From positions 1 to 64,000 of the forward strand of contig JAIPCX010000013.1 in NCBI GenBank assembly GCA_021737945.1: a stretch of 64,000 nucleotides of DNA, read 5' to 3'. Of the stretch, positions 27,181 to 35,569 are shown one piece after another. Both the position numbers and the translations under genes were made by a program. Each line of letters starts with the position of its first letter. Position 1 is the first letter of the stretch. The notes below the pieces were generated by a model that saw nothing but the letters and a program-made list of their open reading frames with translations, had not been told where the DNA came from and ran no database searches. The DNA is from Polynucleobacter sp. (lineage in GTDB: Bacteria; Pseudomonadota; Gammaproteobacteria; Burkholderiales; Burkholderiaceae_D).

Positions 27181-27203
27181 AAAAAGGGTCAGAGACCTTT
27201 ACG
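27181..27203 (-). terminator. Terminator overlapping the stop of the first globin-like gene
   Basis: On the reverse strand AAAGGTC-TCT-GACC-CTTTTT forms a short stem with a T run, and begins within the stop codon region of the gene at 27199-28002. Confidence 0.55.
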
Positions 27204-28002
27204 ATTTTTTCTTCAACACTGACTCTTTATCAAAACTATAAACGTCAGCAAGGTCCATACTAAAACGATGCAAGTAACGGATAAATAGACGCATAGGAAC
27301 GCCATTGTCAAAGGGTAGTGTGTGACTTGCATAAAAATGCTGTGGACCTGAATCGCGCACAAGCTTCAGATTAACAATACTTTCTTTCTCAGCCTGCTTT
27401 TGTATGATTTCTTCTAATTGATCATCAAAGGCCTGATCTTTGATAAATATTTTTCCGTACAAAAGAATTGTTTTTTCTTCGTCATCCAATCGAATCCAAG
27501 CCTCATGCGCCAATCCTTTTTCGGTTTTAATAGCTCTGGACGGCATGACTTCAGAAACGATTTTATTTCGTTTTAAAAATAGGCTAATTTTTTCAGAATC
27601 GACTTCTTTGGCATCTAATACTGAGGGTGATGTATCAGCCGTCTGACTTCTCGTTTCCTCAATAATTTCCAAAATTTCATGAGTTAACTGTGGTGCATGC
27701 TCAGCGTTAAATTTTAGTTCTCTAAACAGCTTCGTCATGATGACGATAATTTCAGAGAACTGTCGCTCAGGTAGTTGTATATCGTATGAGGAAGTTGGGG
27801 TTGCCGGCTTTCTGTATTCAAAGGTAGTCTTTGGAATTAAATACGGCCAATAGCGATTCAAATCTTGAATGATTGTTGGTTTTTTCGCGAGCAGAAAGAA
27901 ATGTTTGACCAAGTCATTTTGGCTAACATTCTCATAGAACTGATCAAGGAATTGGTCAAATTCTTTGGTACCTAAGTAGGACTGTAACAAGATCGAAATC
28001 AT
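27199..28002 (-). CDS. Globin-like protein A with shared C-terminal domain
   Basis: Residues 1-120 of this 267-residue protein follow the truncated-globin pattern of the larger protein at 30394-31803: YLGTKEFDQFLDQFYENV aligns with its first globin helix, and the F-helix region ends ERQFSEI. The haem-ligand histidine is replaced (TPTSSYDIQL at that place), so a normal haem site is unlikely. A signature HEILEIIEETRSQ ends the globin part. Residues 150-267 form a second domain containing YGKIFIKDQAFDDQLEEI and SHTLPFDNGVPMRL; it slightly resembles YbjN-type domains, but I cannot name it. It is roughly 70-75% identical, without gaps, to the gene at 31964-32767. No signal peptide is seen, so it is probably cytoplasmic. 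Function unknown. Confidence 0.85.
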   Translation of the reverse strand: MISILLQSYLGTKEFDQFLDQFYENVSQNDLVKHFFLLAKKPTIIQDLNRYWPYLIPKTTFEYRKPATPTSSYDIQLPERQFSEIIVIMTKLFRELKFNAEHAPQLTHEILEIIEETRSQTADTSPSVLDAKEVDSEKISLFLKRNKIVSEVMPSRAIKTEKGLAHEAWIRLDDEEKTILLYGKIFIKDQAFDDQLEEIIQKQAEKESIVNLKLVRDSGPQHFYASHTLPFDNGVPMRLFIRYLHRFSMDLADVYSFDKESVLKKKS

Positions 28003-28421
28003 GCTGGTTTAATACCCTAGAACTAAGTGAATTTGCGCTTTCATGCGGACTTGGCTGACTGACTTATCAAACCACTTAAGTTTGAAGAGCAGAGGCTATT
28101 CGCAGTCTGAAACTAACTTGATATACATTCCATGAACTAGATCAAGAACCAATCGGGAATGTAAGTATGAAAGTTATCTTTAAGGCAAATTTTATTGAAA
28201 ACCATATCATTATATAAAAAAATAAAAACTGAGTAGCTGGACCGCGTCGTGTGAGGTGGTTAAATAGATTCAACGCTAGCTGGATTGCGTTACATAGACT
28301 GGGGATGCTGGCCAGGGATAGCACCCATAGAATGACTTCAATTGGATAAACATGTTTTTACATAACGAGTTAATTTTGAAGTTTATCTTTTGATCAGTAA
28401 GGCAAAAATATCGAGGCTCAT
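28003..28421. other. AT-rich intergenic stretch upstream of globin-like gene A
   Basis: This 419-bp gap separates the reverse-strand globin-like gene from the forward-strand lipoprotein gene. It should hold both promoters. Apart from an FNR-like site at 28132-28145 and a CTTGAT/ATCAAG inverted repeat around it (18-bp spacer), I see nothing coding; a 60-codon reverse frame at 28142-28324 has no ribosome-binding site or family resemblance. Confidence 0.5.
28132..28145 (-). promoter_or_regulatory. Candidate FNR/ANR-type site
   Basis: On the reverse strand TTGAT-CTAG-TTCAT matches the FNR consensus TTGAT-N4-ATCAA at 8 of 10 positions. It lies 130 bp upstream of globin-like gene A and is about equally placed to act on the forward genes. 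Oxygen-linked control would suit globin relatives, but this is a by-eye match. Confidence 0.3.
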
Positions 28422-28607
28422 GTGCTGCATATGAACTATTTATTTGTAATTTTTTTTATTGCCGGGTGTGGATTGGTTACTGAGCGTTCTATCTACGAAG
28501 GCGTGCGGTCTGTTAACAAGGCCAAGTCGACTGAGATTGAACCCAATTCCAAACAGCTCCCTCCGTATGATCAATACGAAAAAGAGAGAAAAGAAATGCA
28601 TCGGTAA
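28422..28607 (+). CDS. Small lipoprotein
   Basis: A 61-codon frame encodes a short lipoprotein: hydrophobic NYLFVIFFIAGC with lipobox IAGC, then SIYEGVRSVNKAKSTE and a tail LPPYDQYEKERKE. Small lipoproteins ending in a PPYDxYExER-like tail occur in other betaproteobacteria; I know no function for them. GTG at 28422 has GAGG 5 bases upstream; ATG at 28431 is the alternative and gives a more standard signal. The protein should be anchored in a membrane facing the periplasm. Confidence 0.6.
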   Translation: MLHMNYLFVIFFIAGCGLVTERSIYEGVRSVNKAKSTEIEPNSKQLPPYDQYEKERKEMHR

Positions 28608-28743
28608 AGCCAATTTTTTCGGAGTTGTAGATGACGTGCAGTTGGTTAATCATAAATATCTGATTGTCGATTTTCCTAAGAAAAAGCTATTTCAATTTCG
28701 TCATGCTGATTTAAATAGTCAACCCAAAATTTGAGGTATAAAA

Positions 28744-29124
28744 ATGAACAGAGCAATCAATGTGGGTGTTGCGGAGAAATTAGGAAAGTATAGTGATGCT
28801 ATTCAAACCAATTCGGGCGCGCGTTGGTTATACACATCAGGCACGCCAGGCTTGAATGAGGACGGTAGCTTGCCTGAAGATTTTGAGTCGCAGGCCCAAC
28901 TGGCCTGGAAAAGTATTATCGCTATGCTGCATGCAGCGGATATGGATGTTGAAAACATCGTCAAGATTAATCAGTCCATGCTGAGAAGAGAAGATCTACC
29001 GGCTTATCGAAAAATCCGAGATGAACATTTGGGGCTTGCTCGTCCCGCTTGCATGCTTAGTTTTATTAGTGAACTGGTGATGCCAGGCATGCTGATTGAA
29101 TTGGAAATCGTGGCGGCGAAGTAA
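28744..29124 (+). CDS. RidA-family (YjgF/YER057c/UK114) protein
   Basis: The 126-residue protein is a full-length RidA-family member: ARWLYTSGTPGLNEDGSLPEDFESQ, then AWKSIIAMLHAADMDVENIVKIN, and a late RPACMLSF segment carrying the arginine that binds substrate in active RidA. Canonical RidA hydrolyses reactive enamines/imines made by PLP enzymes; several subfamilies lack that activity. The C-terminal ELVMPGMLIELEIVA differs from the textbook RidA subgroup, so it is safer to name only the family. It begins with AGGTATAAAA before the ATG and is not overlapped by neighbours. Confidence 0.85.
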   Translation: MNRAINVGVAEKLGKYSDAIQTNSGARWLYTSGTPGLNEDGSLPEDFESQAQLAWKSIIAMLHAADMDVENIVKINQSMLRREDLPAYRKIRDEHLGLARPACMLSFISELVMPGMLIELEIVAAK

Positions 29125-29290
29125 GTTGTGCTACCCGTTTTTTGGGCGGGCTGACCATAGTTAAATTAACTAGCCCATCGTGTGCTAAGGCTAGCTAAGT
29201 GTAGGTTTTTGAATTCCAAACCTAAACGGTTGCCAAGCTTTGGGACGCGATATACAGTCCGGCATTATAGAAATAATGCCTTCTTAAATA

Positions 29291-29644
29291 ATGTCTACGA
29301 TACCCGCGTGTCCCAGCTGCACAAAAGAAAATACCTATCAGGATGGCGACCTCTATATCTGCGCTGACTGTTTCCACGAATGGTCAGTTAACGGTAGCGC
29401 AATCGGTGAACTAGGGGAGATGGGTGTTGGGATTGTTCGCGATGTGAATGGCAATCCGTTGGCGGATGGTGATTCCGTGATTCTGATTAAAGACCTAAAG
29501 GTAAAAGGTTCCTCGACGGTACTTAAAAAAGGAACCAAGGTTAAAAGTATACGGTTAGGTAATGCGTCAGATGGCCATGAGGTTGATTGCCGAATGGAGG
29601 TGGGTAATTTCATGCTCAAGGCAGAATTTTTGAAAAAAGCATAA
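29291..29644 (+). CDS. PhnA-domain zinc-ribbon protein (YjdM-like)
   Basis: The 117-residue protein has an N-terminal zinc ribbon, CPSC and CADC separated by 16 residues, and a C-terminal SH3-like PhnA domain (VRDVNGNPLADGDSVILIKDLKVKGSS, ending MLKAEFLKK). The name PhnA is historical: these proteins are not part of C-P lyase, and their role is unsettled. A 7-bp inverted repeat (TAGGTTT/AAACCTA, 29202-29224) lies in its upstream region. It stands alone between ridA and an unknown gene. Confidence 0.9.
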   Translation: MSTIPACPSCTKENTYQDGDLYICADCFHEWSVNGSAIGELGEMGVGIVRDVNGNPLADGDSVILIKDLKVKGSSTVLKKGTKVKSIRLGNASDGHEVDCRMEVGNFMLKAEFLKKA

Positions 29645-29770
29645 CGACTCCAATAGCCGTGTTTTCTGGAAGAGAATTTTTTTGTATTTTGATGCCAAGT
29701 TAGGTTATAAATAGCGTTTGTGTAATGGGTAGATAAAACTACCAATTTGATCATTATAATATTAGCAATA

Positions 29771-30307
29771 ATGAATCAAGCTACCGTCCTCCACATTGAG
29801 CATCTGGTCAATCACTACCTTACCCACCACTTGGGCGAGGAAAGAGTCTTTTTTCATTGCAAGGTCAACATTGAACGCATTCGCGATGATCATGTCCTCG
29901 GTGACATTGTTTATCACGACAAGTCTATTGAGGGTGCTGATTACTATCCGCATACCAACATAAACAAAGTTATCTATGAAAATAATGCGGACCTAAAATA
30001 TCTACCGCTGCGCTCTGATGAAGAAAAATCATCAGACATAGATGCCCTAAATATTTCTAAGCGTTCGTCTCGCGAGCTTTCTATTGAAAGTGATGAGCTT
30101 GGCGAATGGGAATTCGAGTGTTTTCTGACTCAAATAAACAAAGAGGAGTGCGGGCAATTTTTGGTTGAGGCTTACGGAAAAAAAGAGAGTATTGCTTTTA
30201 TAACGTACCCTAAAAAATTGCATTACTTTTTAGAAGATGCGTTCGATAAGTATGTTTTGTTTGAAAGGTTGCTCGACAAGACTATGCAGAAGTATGGTTT
30301 TTTATAG
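29771..30307 (+). CDS. Unknown protein between the globin-like genes
   Basis: I do not recognise this protein of about 178 residues. It is acidic and mostly hydrophilic, with no signal peptide or membrane helix. Notable stretches are HIEHLVNHYLTHHLGEERVF near the start, LGEWEFECFLTQINKEECGQF in the middle and a C-terminal AFDKYVLFERLLDKTM. ATG at 29771 is chosen because the eight codons before it are Ile-rich and unlikely to be translated; neither start has a clear ribosome-binding site. It converges on the double-globin gene with an 86-bp gap. Confidence 0.6.
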   Translation: MNQATVLHIEHLVNHYLTHHLGEERVFFHCKVNIERIRDDHVLGDIVYHDKSIEGADYYPHTNINKVIYENNADLKYLPLRSDEEKSSDIDALNISKRSSRELSIESDELGEWEFECFLTQINKEECGQFLVEAYGKKESIAFITYPKKLHYFLEDAFDKYVLFERLLDKTMQKYGFL

Positions 30308-30393
30308 TCCTGTCTAAGCTTATTTACTAATGATCGTCACTTCCTATCGGCGATGCGTTTTTTTAAAATCAGATTAAGCAAGCCAGCCTAAGG

Positions 30394-31803
30394 TTACAGC
30401 GCAACTTTCAGTAATATTTCTTCTGCATCGTAAGTAAAGGTATCAGAAAAAGTCTTTGAAAATTGTTGTGCAATCTTAATAAGTAAACGATTAGGAACGC
30501 CGAATTCAAAGGGTAGGCTGTAACTGGCGACATACAGTGGCGCGTCATCCATATCCGAGTAAAAATTCAAAATCGGGGCGTACTGCTTTGCCTCGTTCAA
30601 TAAATATCCCATTTCTTCTGGCGTGACACTTTCTTTTACCGCGGCCTTTGCGATCAGGGTCAATGTTTGGTTTTCTGAATCAATCTGGGTAAAAAATGGA
30701 AAGGGATAGGGGCCGCCTTTAAATGGTGAGGATACATAGATCAGATCGGGACTCTTAATGATCGTATCTAATTTCCCTTTTTGATAGACCTTGGATAAAG
30801 CTTCTACGGATACATCAACTGATTTTAAAACGCCAATCTTGTTGTCATTGCATTGAGTACGAGTCTCTTCAATGATTTCCATGATGTGCGTAATTAGGCG
30901 AGGCGTATCATGCTCAGGTAGTCCGGCATTAAGTAATATCTTGCGCAAGATATCAATCACCTCGTTGAAGACTACGGCGCCCACTTGAATACTCAAATCT
31001 GAGCTTTGGAAAAATCCACCTAAATAAGAATGATCTGCTTTTCTCAGGACATAGCTAGCGAAATGCTCTTGGTCAGCAATTATTTTTTCAGGCGTGACAT
31101 TTAAAAAGTAATGCCTGAGTTCGGGTTCTTCATTTACTTGGCTATAGAGATCGCGCACGATCATTTTAATTCGTGGAAGACCGCCGAAAATTGGTTTAAA
31201 AGTTGCTTTTTGTTGTTGCTTGAAATCAGTCGATGTCGAGTTAGTTTGAGCCTGCACAGGCGTTGACGCCGCTGGTTCAGCCGTCGGAATGCTGTTTGCT
31301 TTTTCGGTAGAATTTTCTGTGTGAGTACTTGGGGATGGTTTAGCTAACGCCCCAATTGTGGGGATCTGCTTGGCAACAGCTGGTGATGGCGATTTGTTCG
31401 CCACAGGTGCGGGTTGAGTTTGTACTTGCGGTAGTGATTGTTTAGTACGGTCGACAATCTCATCTCGTATTTCCAGTACAACGCCCATAATCAATTTAAT
31501 GTCATCAATCGTCACGCCACCAGTTTTAAGCGTGTTAACCAATAACCGACCAATCTCATCGAATTCGGCGTCGCTGATATTTAAAGGATGATGAGCATCT
31601 GCAAGTTCCCTACCTGTATATGTTTTTGCTGGTTTGCCTAGGACGACAGATAAAAATTGTACTTGATGGTCAATCAATTTTTCCATGTCCAATTTATTGA
31701 AATAATGACCCACTTTGGGGTTTACTCGTGCCTGCTTATAAAATTCGCGGACGAGAATTTTCATTGTTGGCGTTCCGCCATATTTGTCGTACAGGGTGGG
31801 CAT
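30394..31803 (-). CDS. Double truncated-globin protein with shared C-terminal domain
   Basis: This 469-residue protein has four parts. Residues 1-118 are a group-1-type truncated haemoglobin with Tyr22 at the B10 place (REFYKQ), DHQVQFL, YTGREL and the proximal His71 in ADAHHPLNIS. Residues 121-200 are a Pro/Gln/Thr-rich linker. Residues 203-320 are a second globin-like domain in which the proximal-His region reads FFQSSDLSIQ, so it probably cannot hold haem in the usual way; it ends in IIEETRTQ, as in the two smaller paralogues. Residues 330-469 match their C-terminal domain, with SYSLPFEFGVPNRL. A haem-based sensor or O2/NO-binding protein is a reasonable inference. It is separated by 160 bp from the next globin-like gene upstream. 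Confidence 0.87.
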   Translation of the reverse strand: MPTLYDKYGGTPTMKILVREFYKQARVNPKVGHYFNKLDMEKLIDHQVQFLSVVLGKPAKTYTGRELADAHHPLNISDAEFDEIGRLLVNTLKTGGVTIDDIKLIMGVVLEIRDEIVDRTKQSLPQVQTQPAPVANKSPSPAVAKQIPTIGALAKPSPSTHTENSTEKANSIPTAEPAASTPVQAQTNSTSTDFKQQQKATFKPIFGGLPRIKMIVRDLYSQVNEEPELRHYFLNVTPEKIIADQEHFASYVLRKADHSYLGGFFQSSDLSIQVGAVVFNEVIDILRKILLNAGLPEHDTPRLITHIMEIIEETRTQCNDNKIGVLKSVDVSVEALSKVYQKGKLDTIIKSPDLIYVSSPFKGGPYPFPFFTQIDSENQTLTLIAKAAVKESVTPEEMGYLLNEAKQYAPILNFYSDMDDAPLYVASYSLPFEFGVPNRLLIKIAQQFSKTFSDTFTYDAEEILLKVAL

Positions 31804-31963
31804 AATTTTCTAATCGCAAAAAAATAATGTGACGGGCTTTGGCAAATTATGAATGTGAGCCAACCCTCAGTCAGAGGTTGATCACTCTACAGAGGAAATG
31901 TGACATGTTAATTTTTCGTTTTGCTTGAACAGTGACTTTTACATTTTTATAATGTGTCGCAAA

Positions 31964-32767
31964 TCAGGTTTTTTTCTTTAATATCGATTCTTTGTCAAAA
32001 CTGTAGACGGCTGCTAAGTCCAGACAGAAGCGCTGTAAACAACGTGTAAAAAGTCGCATCGGGATGCCGTTGTTAAACGGCAGAGTATGACTTGCATACA
32101 AATGTTGCGGCCCAGAGTCACGTACAAGTCGCAGTTTGACGATGCTTTCTTTATCGGCCTGTTTTTCTATGATTTCAGTTAATTGATCATCGAAGGCTTG
32201 GTCTTTAATGAATATTTTTCCGTAGATCAGTATTTCCTTTTCTTCGTGATCAAGTCGTATCCACGATTCATGCTCTAGCCCTTTGCTGGTTTTTAATGCT
32301 TTGGATGGCATGACTTCAGACTGAATCTTGTTTCGCCTCAGATAAAGGTGAAGAATATCCGAATCGATATCTTTTCCCTCAAGCGTCGATGATGCTGTAT
32401 CAGCTGTCTGGCTTCGTGTTTCTTCAATGAGTTCTAGGATTTCATGAATCAACTGAGGAGCATGTTCTGAGCTGAATTTCATTTCGCGAAACAACTTTGT
32501 CATCAAAATGACTATTTCGGAGAATTGACTTTCAGGCAGCTGGATTTCGTACGATGAAGTTGGCGTCGCAGGTTTTCTATATTCGAGAGTTGATTTGGGT
32601 AGCAAGTACGGCCAATATCTTTTCAAGTCTTGGACCACTGCGGGTTTTTTAGCCACGATAAAAAAATGTTTAATTAGATCGTGCTGAGTGACTGAGTCAT
32701 AGAATTGATCTAGGAAGTCATCAAACTGTGGGGTGCCAAGGTATTTTTCTAACAAGATTTGCGCCAT
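31964..32767 (-). CDS. Globin-like protein C with shared C-terminal domain
   Basis: This 267-residue protein is the paralogue of the gene at 27199-28002: same length, no gaps, roughly 70-75% identical by eye. The globin-like part (YLGTPQFDDFLDQFYDSV to HEILELIEETRSQ) again has TPTSSYEIQL where the proximal His would be. The C-terminal part has YGKIFIKDQAFDDQL and SHTLPFNNGIPMRL. ATG at 32767 is preferred over the upstream frame because GGAAGAGA stands just before it and it aligns with the paralogue's start. The two copies flank about 4 kb holding ridA, phnA and the double-globin gene, which suggests duplication. Function unknown. Confidence 0.85.
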   Translation of the reverse strand: MAQILLEKYLGTPQFDDFLDQFYDSVTQHDLIKHFFIVAKKPAVVQDLKRYWPYLLPKSTLEYRKPATPTSSYEIQLPESQFSEIVILMTKLFREMKFSSEHAPQLIHEILELIEETRSQTADTASSTLEGKDIDSDILHLYLRRNKIQSEVMPSKALKTSKGLEHESWIRLDHEEKEILIYGKIFIKDQAFDDQLTEIIEKQADKESIVKLRLVRDSGPQHLYASHTLPFNNGIPMRLFTRCLQRFCLDLAAVYSFDKESILKKKT

Positions 32768-33173
32768 TTTTGTGTCTCTTCCTGTGCCAGATACGGTGTT
32801 TGGCAAATGATGTTTAGCGTCAGAAAAATGGCGTATACCGCCAGTCTTCTGCTATAGCTCACCGCTTTAGTTTTATTGTTTTGGTTCGGTGGAATGTGGA
32901 TTGAGAAACCGAATACCTTTGGAATTATCGTATACCAGTTTGCAATTTATATTCAAGGATGAAATGAGTTAACTGAATAAGCACTTTAGTGGGGTTGCCT
33001 ATTAGTTAATTTAATTTCGTGTCGTCAGCTAATTGATGGTTATCTCACGTTTTTGTTAAGCATTGTTAGCTAATGCATACCCTTGAACGTGCTTTTTTCC
33101 TACGCCGCGCAAATAATTTTCGTGAGTAGACTTTGTGGAGGATTGAAGCGTAGGCGGCGGGAGATTTGTCTTA
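32768..33173. other. Intergenic stretch between globin-like gene C and flaG
   Basis: These 406 bp hold the promoter of globin-like gene C and the 3' end region of flaG. I see no supported gene. An inverted repeat CCTACGC (33100-33106)/GCGTAGG about 40 bp apart lies just downstream of flaG. Confidence 0.4.
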
Positions 33174-33566
33174 CTAAGCTTGAGCGTTATAGAGCACACC
33201 TTTTAGATTTTCAATCGAGTGCGCAACGCGTAAAACCGCTTCAGCTGGAATTTGGCGGACTAGCTCACCGGTATTTTTATCAGTAACGGCAACTACGGGA
33301 GTGTTAATCGTTCTATCCATTTCAAACCAAAGATCACGATTGGTTGATTTCATTTGTTGGTTTAACTCATCCACCACAGCTTGAAATGCCTGAGTCATTT
33401 TTTCTGCCGAGTTTGGCGGAATGGGTCCAACAGGTATGGGCTCCGGTGTGCGGTTAGGCGATGGAGTAATTACCTTAGCTGCAGGGAGCTGCACTCCCAT
33501 GGCGGGGGCAAGGGTTGCGCTGGCATTAGTAGCAGTGTGAATAATCATTATGGCAAGTGCTGACAC
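33174..33566 (-). CDS. flaG: Orphan FlaG-family flagellar protein
   Basis: The C-terminal half is a FlaG domain: WFEMDRTINTPVVAVTDKNTGELVRQIPAEAVLRVAHSIENLKG, with the family's GE.(I/V)RQIP.E core. The first 65 residues are Pro/Ala-rich and variable, as usual. FlaG is linked to flagellar filament length in some bacteria. GTG at 33566 or ATG at 33548 may be the start; neither has a good ribosome-binding site. No flagellin, fliD, fliS or other flagellar gene is nearby, which is unusual because flaG normally sits beside fliD. Confidence 0.85.
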   Translation of the reverse strand: MSALAIMIIHTATNASATLAPAMGVQLPAAKVITPSPNRTPEPIPVGPIPPNSAEKMTQAFQAVVDELNQQMKSTNRDLWFEMDRTINTPVVAVTDKNTGELVRQIPAEAVLRVAHSIENLKGVLYNAQA

Positions 33567-33685
33567 ATGAATTCAGATAGGCATATCATAGGCCAACTTT
33601 ACCGTTAGCGCTAAGATGCGTCCATAGTGTGCGCCATGGACTTGCTTATCGGTGCGGGTACAAATAAAACTGTGTTGAGATCGAT

Positions 33686-34132
33686 ATGGAAAAGCGAGAT
33701 TTTAAAATTTTAATAAGAAAAAAGTTATTCAGTACTCGATGGCGATTGCTTGCAGTAACGTTGTTTCTTTTGCCAGCCAGTCAAGTTTATGCCGCCTGGG
33801 AGTTGGTGACTAAAAGTGCGCGCGGTGACACGTATTATCTTGACTCAACCGTTCAAACTAAAGGGATCATTTCTCAGGTCTGGGGCTTAGTCGATTTATC
33901 GGAGCCCGTTGAGGGCAGTAACTCGGTTAAGCGTCTGTATCAAATCGACTGCGTCAAGGGCAAGCTTAGAGTTAATCAGCGTTTGGCTTTTGCCGACAAG
34001 GGAGGGCAGGGTGCATTGACCTCGTCTGAAAAAACTCCAGGGCAGTGGGTATACCCTGATCCCGAATCAATCAATGAACAATTAGTTTTGAAAATTTGTT
34101 TCGATAAAAAACCTGCTAATCCAAAACAGTAA
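33686..34132 (+). CDS. Exported surface-adhesin-E-like protein
   Basis: The 148-residue protein has a basic start, a hydrophobic signal LLAVTLFLLPASQVYAA (cleavage near VYA-A), and a body that opens WELVTKSARGDTYYLDSTVQ and has a QVWGLVDL motif and two cysteines (IDCVKGK, LKICFD). This pattern fits the surface-adhesin protein E-like family common as small periplasmic proteins in betaproteobacteria. Its job here is unknown. GAGATCGAT before the ATG gives a weak ribosome-binding site. It converges on the HTH gene at 34160. Confidence 0.7.
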   Translation: MEKRDFKILIRKKLFSTRWRLLAVTLFLLPASQVYAAWELVTKSARGDTYYLDSTVQTKGIISQVWGLVDLSEPVEGSNSVKRLYQIDCVKGKLRVNQRLAFADKGGQGALTSSEKTPGQWVYPDPESINEQLVLKICFDKKPANPKQ

Positions 34133-34159
34133 GCTTCGCGATAGCAGCGCAGAGCGGTA

Positions 34160-34441
34160 TCAACCTCTGTCTAATTCAGACACAGTAGAATCAATGAGGG
34201 AATGAATTTTGTCATTTCCCATGCCTAATTTTTTAGCGTAAATCCGCATTTTTATTTTTAGCATTTCAACTTCATTTCCGAATCCACTGTAGTCAGCGGT
34301 CTCAATCGAGTTGATATGTCTTTCGCTCACTCCAATACGGAGGGCAGCATCACTGAGTGTCCAGCCTTTGATCTGCCTAGCATTTTCCAGCAGCATTCCT
34401 AATTCAAAGCCTGAGAAAAATCCTGAGTCCGAGAGTTTCAT
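34160..34441 (-). CDS. RodZ-type helix-turn-helix protein
   Basis: The 93-residue protein is little more than one helix-turn-helix domain of the RodZ/HTH_25 kind: LGMLLENARQIKGWTLSDAALRIGVSERHINSIETADYS, then KMRIYAKKLGM. RodZ itself continues into a membrane helix and periplasmic domain; none is present. It is divergently arranged with a similar HTH protein at 34681, and the two align along their length. A small DNA-binding regulator is likely. Confidence 0.75.
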   Translation of the reverse strand: MKLSDSGFFSGFELGMLLENARQIKGWTLSDAALRIGVSERHINSIETADYSGFGNEVEMLKIKMRIYAKKLGMGNDKIHSLIDSTVSELDRG

Positions 34442-34680
34442 TACGCGGCGTGTACTTAGCTATTTAGTATCGTTGACCAGTCATGGTCGATCGGGGTTTT
34501 AAACAGATGATTTTGGTATTGTAATTTTTAGGCTAATGCGCGCTTTGAGAATATCGTGTAATTACTAAAATGGCACGATACTTTCTTAGGAATTTGCGCT
34601 ATTGCCCCTTAGGTCATATGGACAATGCCCTAAAATTATGCAACAGTTTGCTCAGGAGTAGACAATCACAAGAACACATC

Positions 34681-34977
34681 ATGCTTGGGGAAATTCTTAA
34701 ACAACGGCGGGAAGAGCTTGGACTGGGAGTTCAGGATATTGCTCGCATGACGGGAATGCCGCCTAAGCAGGTTGTTGCTCTTGAGGCGGGTCACGCGGCC
34801 TACTTTGCTGGCGGTAAGCTGGAAGTTGATCGTTTGATCAAGCTCTACGCCAAAAAAATAAATATGAATGTAGATCCATCATTTTCAGCCCATTCAGCCG
34901 CGGATCAAAAACCGGGTGATAAGCGTTCTGCAGAGGCAATGATTCCAGCCTTCTTAATGGTCGCCTCGCCAAAGTAA
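34681..34977 (+). CDS. RodZ-type helix-turn-helix protein, divergent partner
   Basis: From ATG at 34681 this 98-residue protein opens LGEILKQRREELGLGVQDIARMTGMPPKQVVALEAGHAAYF and has LIKLYAKKINM, matching the HTH protein at 34160-34441 helix for helix. The reading frame is open further upstream to 34570, but those residues do not resemble the family; no strong ribosome-binding site supports either start. The C-terminal 30 residues are Ser/Ala-rich with no membrane helix. It is probably cytoplasmic and DNA-binding. Confidence 0.7.
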   Translation: MLGEILKQRREELGLGVQDIARMTGMPPKQVVALEAGHAAYFAGGKLEVDRLIKLYAKKINMNVDPSFSAHSAADQKPGDKRSAEAMIPAFLMVASPK

Positions 34978-35242: not shown

Positions 35243-35569
35243 ATGGATACTAGGGAAATTGCACGGCGTCTGGGTTCACTTTCGATCGAAGAGCGGGTTC
35301 AGATAATCAACTGTTTGCTCGATTTCAGCCCGCAGAGCTTAAAAGTAGTGGAAATTGCCAGTGCCACTCAATTAGGTGCACCTGCAGTACACAAGCAAGT
35401 TGAGGCCTTGGTGGGGGCGGAATTAGTGTCCTCTCAAACTGTCGATGGCGAAAAAGCGTATGCCGTGAACGCGAAAATGGTTCGCGACTTATTTGATTAC
35501 ATGTATCACCAATTCGGCCCTGGATTTCAGCCTAAGACAAGTCACGCTGACACTGAAGCAGCACACTAA
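35243..35569 (+). CDS. ArsR-like winged-helix regulator
   Basis: The 108-residue protein reads RRLGSLSIEERVQIINCLLDFSPQSLKVVEIASATQLGAPAVHKQVEALVGAELVSSQTVDGEKAYAVN, a winged helix of the ArsR/HTH_20 type with recognition helix around TQLGAPAVHKQVEAL and a wing at VDGEKAY. No cysteine motif for metal binding is present, so any inducer is not a simple thiol-bound metal. The gaps on each side are over 250 bp, so it is probably monocistronic. Confidence 0.75.
   Translation: MDTREIARRLGSLSIEERVQIINCLLDFSPQSLKVVEIASATQLGAPAVHKQVEALVGAELVSSQTVDGEKAYAVNAKMVRDLFDYMYHQFGPGFQPKTSHADTEAAH

Follow-up and report, generated by a model that had tools for sequence, protein, structure and literature searches.

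We analysed a 64,000-nucleotide stretch of DNA from Polynucleobacter sp. (assembly GCA_021737945.1, contig JAIPCX010000013.1, positions 1 to 64,000), called the window below, in which three reverse-strand genes, here A, B and C, encode proteins that join a truncated-globin-derived domain to a C-terminal domain with a predicted YbjN fold. An initial annotation of this DNA had described three reverse-strand genes with shared N-terminal and C-terminal regions, one of them with two globin units. All of these features were found at their positions (Table 1), and B consists of a Bac_globin unit followed by a second, globin-derived domain and the C-terminal domain. Proteins A and C align without gaps and are identical at 198 of 267 positions (74%), within the 70-75% first estimated, and residues 206-466 of B (its last 260 residues) align with C at 26% identity (E 2e-27). 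The globin-derived parts end in the signatures LELIEETRSQ, LEIIEETRSQ and MEIIEETRTQ, and the core signatures of the C-terminal domains are SHTLPFNNGIPMRL, SHTLPFDNGVPMRL and SYSLPFEFGVPNRL. A and B lie consecutively on one strand, about 160 bases apart (190 bases in G007 and about 160 in G003, two other genomes of the genus). Between C and B, on the opposite strand, are a RidA-type (Ribonuc_L-PSP) gene, a YjdM/PhnA gene (by Pfam) and a gene for a protein of 178 amino acids.

Table 1. Positions and domains of the three genes and two neighbours in the window.
Feature	Position	Strand	Product	Domains (residues)	Basis or remark
Gene A	31967..32767	(-)	267 amino acids; open reading frame (ORF) 31964-32767, ATG at 32767	1-122 haem-less, truncated-globin-derived; about 126-267 predicted YbjN fold	AlphaFold2 model and structural matches
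Gene B	30397..31803	(-)	469 amino acids; ORF 30394-31803	1-121 group 1 truncated haemoglobin, haem-competent by its residues; about 122-206 low-confidence linker; about 206-319 haem-less, globin-like; about 323-467 predicted YbjN fold	Residues 1-121 from Pfam, Protein Data Bank and alignment
Gene C	27202..28002	(-)	267 amino acids; ORF 27199-28002	The same two as A	Paralogue of A (74% identity); 96% identical orthologue in G003
Conserved neighbour of B	29771..30304	(+)	178 amino acids; longest ORF 29747-30307		No assigned family
FlaG-family gene	33177..33566	(-)			Upstream of A on the same strand; Pfam FlaG, E 3.2e-18; genomic context

The first unit of B appears from its sequence to be a complete globin, competent to bind haem. 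Residues 3-116 match the Pfam family Bac_globin (PF01152; E 6.1e-19, 68.8 bits against a cut-off of 21), the best matches of this segment in the Protein Data Bank (PDB) are group 1 truncated haemoglobins (3aq5, E 1.2e-14), and the AlphaFold2 model of B matches the group 1 truncated haemoglobin 7tt9 with Z 14.8. By alignment, this unit keeps TyrB10, PheCD1, GlnE11 and HisF8, position names that follow the truncated haemoglobin literature, and the F8 column holds histidine in the first unit of all five B orthologues.

For A, C and the second half of B, no family exceeded its curated cut-off in Pfam or NCBIfam, and as single sequences A and C matched no globin family in Pfam. We aligned 24 sequences of the family, including the window's three and leaving out the first unit of B, and found 15 invariant columns. 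The profile of this alignment placed the cyanoglobin 1s69 first among PDB entries (E 1.6e-6), and all ten matches below 0.01 were truncated globins. When the haem-less domain (25 sequences) was compared by hhalign with 23 truncated globins, the result was 99.1% (E 9.5e-19), as against 0.8% for the haem-less domain with YbjN, 0.3% for the C-terminal domain with YbjN and 2.1% for the C-terminal domain with globins. In the model of A, residues 2-116 matched HbN of Mycobacterium tuberculosis (5ab8) with Z 6.9 in VIA-align. The invariant columns and the first-ranked cyanoglobin, with the low ratios of nonsynonymous to synonymous substitution (dN/dS) given below, indicate a family pattern beyond chance.

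The position of the proximal histidine separates the two kinds of domain completely: all 23 true globins have histidine at F8, whereas none of the 25 family domains does, the residue there being Ser (10), Met (8), Asp (5), Leu (1) or Lys (1). The family set excludes four fragments (L065:11594, L067, L079 and L086) and a split copy in G018; the true globins were those kept from 26 sources by a stop filter and a phmmer comparison with the first unit of B. Other positions of the haem pocket are retained to varying degrees, with Phe at CD1 in 24 of 25 family domains, Tyr at B10 in 15 and Gln at E11 in 5. An invariant histidine, His34, sits two residues ahead of CD1, and invariant polar residues (E112, E116, R118 and Q120) lie near the end of the globin part. 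In a phylogenetic tree, the haem-less domains fall on one side of a branch with support 100/99, so that a single origin suffices to explain them; the root of this tree is not known, and long branches leave its finer structure unsure. These analyses show that truncated globins are the ancestors of the shared N-terminal domain, which has no proximal histidine. The globin ancestry first assigned to all of the N-terminal parts is thus borne out by the PDB profile search, by hhalign and, for B, by Pfam, and the structure prediction recommended with it recovered a globin match in A. Judged by the residue at F8, the locus probably encodes the proposed set of one haem-competent protein and two haem-less paralogues.

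For the C-terminal domain, structure prediction points to the YbjN fold. AlphaFold2 modelled A with a predicted local distance difference test score (pLDDT) of 92 and a predicted template modelling score (pTM) of 0.88, and residues 126-267 of this model matched Escherichia coli YbjN (6vu7) over 134 residues (Z 14.0, root-mean-square deviation 2.5; VIA-align), followed by AmyR (Z 13.1), BacA (12.5), DR1245 (12.1), with type III secretion chaperones scoring next, at about 8-11. Foldseek likewise ranked seven YbjN/AmyR chains first, and the chaperones came after YbjN in both structure searches. The model of B (pLDDT 70, with residues 119-206 below 50) matched 6vu7 with Z 13.8. When a profile of the C-terminal domain was run against the 704 ORFs of 36 YbjN loci, the first three ranks went to YbjN ORFs, each from a different genome of the same order, at weak E values of 0.02, 0.12 and 0.7, and the LPFxxG(V/I)PxRL core aligned over the GGIT region of these three. 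This domain had been described as novel; because its fold, in the models of both A and B, matches that of YbjN/AmyR and the class I type III secretion chaperones, that description does not hold, and a new fold was rejected. The domain assignments as a whole are very probably correct.

To assess whether these genes are maintained, we calculated Nei-Gojobori dN/dS ratios. The values were 0.069 for C and 0.140 for B between the window and G003, 0.086 for B between G017 and G005, 0.052 and 0.064 for two D-type pairs (a further type of the family, described below) and 0.072 for an A-type pair. These six pairs, spanning 0.05-0.14, were unsaturated, and dS was saturated in three others (A with C, A of the window with G007, and B of the window with G017). 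Such low ratios show that the genes are maintained and that the family is under purifying selection.

The family was found in 17 of 21 genomes of the genus. By our own assignment its genes fall into A-type (A and C), B-type and D-type, the last encoding about 273 amino acids with 24-32% identity to A, C and B; A-type genes occur in 13 genomes, D-type in 8 and B in 5, counting genes cut by contig ends (G003, G006 and G011) and an A-type remnant in G012. No family gene was present in G010, G013, G014 or G016, and single globins were seen in G010 and G016. Eight of the 21 genomes carry a single family gene. It had been suggested that the three genes might travel together. Homologues of A, B and C occur together in only three of the 21 genomes (the window's own genome, G000, together with G003 and G007), which indicates a gene family and not a fixed three-gene system, and the three genes as a unit were rejected as a general rule. 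All three are certainly intact just in the window's genome: in G003, A is in two pieces at contig ends, and in G007 the C copy runs into a stop after 103 residues, with the contig ending 99 bases further on.

Outside the genus, in genome samples that overlap one another, the complete architecture was not recovered. None of 35 genomes matched the query P0003, and none of 43 other genera matched in a sample of 195 genomes of the taxonomic family. Four other genomes matched in a sample of 300 from the order, three of them confined to N-terminal globin positions and the fourth covering 29 positions (E 0.0097), and two matched in a sample of 398 from the phylum, again by the N-terminal part alone; in other genomes, the family profile picks truncated-globin-like stretches through this part. 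A strict peptide-pattern scan of contig records returned 21 loci and none outside the genus, although one such pattern may miss distant relatives. In the samples searched, the architecture is confined to one genus. Its carriers are apparently freshwater bacteria, to judge by the names of isolates (pond and Erken, for example).

Examination of the genomic context revealed one conserved neighbour of B. The gene for 178 amino acids lies tail-to-tail with B at all five B loci, in two different surroundings: beside A-type genes in the window, L065 and L066, and elsewhere at L070 and L084. It is present in 5 of 5 genomes with B and in 0 of 16 without, a pattern expected by chance once in 20,349 if genomes were independent, which the related B genomes are not. 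Its dN/dS was 0.159 and 0.150. The best Pfam match had E 0.07 and a weak match to roadblock/LC7 had E 0.18; NCBIfam, PADLOC and PHROGs returned nothing at E up to 1. No clear relative was found outside the genus, a search of 399 genomes from the order giving three partial matches at E 0.01-0.03.

Beside A, at 33177-34977, the window holds the FlaG-family gene, a surface-adhesin-E-like gene and two HTH_25 genes. The order FlaG before A also occurs in one related genome, at L067. A winged helix-turn-helix gene at 35243, from a cluster of seven loci, was considered as a partner of A-type genes and discounted, because it belongs to a paralogous family with four matches in the window's genome and because the gene next to A in the window and those that accompany A-type genes in six other genomes are different paralogues (28-43% identical). 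About 60 bases upstream of the start of A, at 32829-32843, is the palindrome TGGCGTATACCGCCA, which occurs once in the window (0.07 expected) and may be a terminator or an operator. It was found at 5 of 205 loci, four of them copies of the same site and one an unrelated YbjN locus, and was not seen in the relatives' family loci examined. Promoter-like sites in the window are at chance level (16 against 15.9 expected) and terminator-like sites above it (15 against 6.2). Strict patterns detected no relatives on viral contigs, A had no plasmid match, and PADLOC and PHROGs gave no convincing match (weak ones at E 0.05-0.28), so that a phage, plasmid or defence origin is unsupported by these searches.

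A recurrent gene row (a PMT_2 glycosyltransferase, a flavin adenine dinucleotide-dependent oxidoreductase, an epimerase, UbiA and others) was found at seven loci, each time flanked by a member of the globin group. The member is A-type at L068 and L071, an A-type remnant at L086 and D-type at L077, L082 and L083, while at L088, in the window's genome, it is a plain truncated haemoglobin (L088:6643-7017 (+), Pfam E 7.8e-14). This variation suggests that, at a single site, the plain globin and the fused genes of the family take each other's place. Truncated globins are also joined to other domains in the sampled genomes. In G008 and G020, a GGDEF domain is fused to a truncated haemoglobin that has HisF8, at L145:1465-2364 (+) (Pfam Bac_globin E 5.6e-10, GGDEF E 2.4e-9) and at L141:952-1941 (-), the latter judged by eye; a frame of 297 amino acids in G004:C199 may be a third such fusion. 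Our literature search found no paper combining 'truncated globin' and 'GGDEF'. In another family of the order, L038:1069-1857 (+) encodes a protein of 262 amino acids that, by eye, resembles a response-regulator receiver domain followed by a truncated globin.

We next compared the architecture with known systems. Residues 1-121 of B resemble group 1 truncated haemoglobins in sequence, fold and haem residues, whereas the shared haem-less domain resembles them by profile and weakly by fold and lacks the proximal histidine. Both globin types are here fused to a domain of predicted YbjN fold, unlike the single-domain globins. Truncated haemoglobins are in most cases described as proteins of a single domain; some fusions of truncated globins to other domains have been reported. 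A phylogenomic survey of globins lists truncated haemoglobins among the single-domain globins and gives flavohaemoglobins and globin-coupled sensors as the chimeric ones (PMC1457004). With globin-coupled sensors the present proteins have in common an N-terminal globin and a C-terminal non-globin domain, but their globin belongs to the truncated family and none of the usual transmitter domains serves as output: in Pfam, PF01152 was the sole globin family matched by B, none was matched by A or C, and no transmitter domain was found. YbjN, AmyR, DR1245 and BacA are stand-alone domains. The C-terminal domain here has the predicted fold of these proteins (E. coli YbjN 6vu7, Erwinia amylovora AmyR 5fr7, Deinococcus radiodurans DR1245 4h5b and Pseudomonas aeruginosa BacA 8q8o; Z 12.1-14.0 over 123-138 residues), but does not match PF10722 and has a globin domain in front of it. 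The class I type III chaperones CesT, SycT, SicP, ExsC and VecA have the same fold at a lower Z of about 8-11, and no type III secretion genes were found among the neighbours scanned with Pfam.

A further likeness, in logic and not in membership, is to RsbR of the stressosome, in which haem and haem-less globin paralogues stand on a shared C-terminal domain. The RsbR proteins of Bacillus have non-haem globins. In RsbR the globin is joined to STAS, for which the three proteins gave no Pfam match, whereas here a globin of the truncated type is joined to the predicted YbjN fold. According to part of a study of Vibrio vulnificus, its RsbR carries haem and senses oxygen (PMC9237108). Our literature search yielded no paper combining 'YbjN' and 'globin', no such fusion among the matches listed, and nothing related on haem-less truncated haemoglobins. 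With no paper found that joins the two, the architecture appears as a novel pairing of domains whose kinds are each known, with the globin in a haem-less form, in agreement with the early impression that it matched no described system.

Together, these observations lead us to propose, with a probability of roughly 45%, that the family consists of regulators in which a truncated-globin-derived input domain would gate binding by a YbjN-type protein-binding domain. For YbjN proteins, no input signal is known to us. The family could have arisen by a single fusion and a single loss of haem. Because YbjN proteins are held, in passages of the AmyR study (PMC5398634), to act non-enzymatically by protein-protein interaction, the C-terminal part may be expected to bind protein, and would take up a client in the way class I type III chaperones do. 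The same passages describe a conserved dimerisation interface (PMC5398634), and the domains here may likewise dimerise with themselves or with paralogues, so that B may, as first suggested, act jointly with its haem-less paralogues by way of the domain they have in common. In B, binding of O2 or nitric oxide (NO) at the N-terminal haem would alter client binding by way of the haem-less globin, and A and C would bind in the same way independently of haem. As a client or partner of B, the protein encoded by the convergent gene for 178 amino acids is the best candidate. Among proteins of this fold, AmyR and BacA are described in parts of the respective studies as affecting exopolysaccharide or biofilm (PMC3445560; PMC10948618), and DR1245 as binding the DNA-repair protein DdrB (PMC3575483).

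Several observations weigh against this proposal. The structural match of the haem-less domain to globins, at Z 6.9, is weak by itself for a helical domain. The sequences P0001-P0003 did not match the YbjN family PF10722 at E up to 5, the window's genome has no match to it, and hhalign of the C-terminal domain with 26 YbjN sequences from the phylum sample gave just 0.3%; of 36 YbjN loci compared, three gave the weak sequence support described above and the rest none, although YbjN proteins share their fold at almost no sequence similarity according to part of the AmyR study (PMC5398634). The model of B is of moderate confidence, and its predicted arrangement of domains is not reliable. B occurs in only 5 of the 21 genomes, and A-type and D-type genes occur without it, so that these cannot all depend on B. 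The five B genomes are related, and the association with the gene for 178 amino acids may therefore reflect shared ancestry; a second copy of that gene in the window's genome (G000:C37:10182-10592, L184; 67% identical over 138 residues, the aligned part containing one stop) sits on a contig in which B was not detected.

Alternatively, B could act through its first unit as an NO dioxygenase or O2-binding globin, with the rest of the protein serving as a dimerisation scaffold and A and C having an unrelated scaffold role. NO dioxygenation is the known activity of HbN of M. tuberculosis, and the first unit of B has the group 1 set TyrB10, GlnE11 and HisF8. We consider this unlikely, as a scaffold alone poorly explains either why 17 of 21 genomes carry haem-less family genes, with B missing from 12 of the 17, or why E112, E116, R118 and Q120 are invariant, and the genus also has truncated globins of the plain kind, one being encoded in the window's genome. 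The proteins might also be export or assembly chaperones, for a flagellar or surface protein for example, with the globin part as a helical module that binds the client. The rank of type III secretion chaperones after YbjN in both structure searches with the model of A, and the FlaG gene upstream of A in the window and L067, point in this direction, but FlaG stands beside the family at two loci only, in related genomes, and the neighbours scanned at other loci include glycosyltransferase, two-component, CIA30 or M48 peptidase genes. AmyR, moreover, has this fold without evidence of a secretion role in passages of the study describing it (PMC5398634), and on balance a chaperone function seems improbable.

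The haem-less domain could instead still bind haem or another ligand through other residues, which would make all members direct sensors. A fold predicted for A with high confidence, the frequent Tyr at B10 and Phe at CD1, and the invariant His34 are consistent with this idea; the Ser, Met, Asp, Leu or Lys at F8 and the scarcity of Gln at E11 are not, and to our knowledge the place of His34 is not a ligand position in known truncated globins, so we regard it as quite improbable. Decay, finally, is evident in some copies: G018:C113:6706-7345 (-) is split over two frames and probably frameshifted, a 79-residue A-type remnant lies in G012:C83, and the C copy in G007 stops early, as noted above. 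That the family as a whole consists of functionless relics of a globin gene family is nevertheless hardly credible, since most copies not cut by a contig end are open, and this explanation was rejected on the dN/dS of the six unsaturated pairs.

The proposal of globin-gated regulators can be extended to a sensor hub, a speculative and rather unlikely form of it, in which B and the A-, C- and D-type proteins would assemble through the YbjN-type dimer domain, gas binding on a few B subunits would reset client binding by the whole assembly, and the protein of 178 amino acids would be the dedicated partner of B. If true, such a hub would resemble a stressosome in the way it works, but with neither STAS domains nor a kinase.

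These data place truncated haemoglobin and the predicted YbjN fold in one protein family, in which the joined globin has lost its haem ligand and to which B adds a globin that is probably haem-capable. If B is a sensor, it would provide a natural case of client binding by a YbjN fold gated by a globin, and both the role of the haem-less globin and the action of YbjN proteins would become testable in small proteins. Even without sensing, the family is an example, maintained by selection, of a truncated globin that has been put to new use, without haem, in signalling or as a scaffold.

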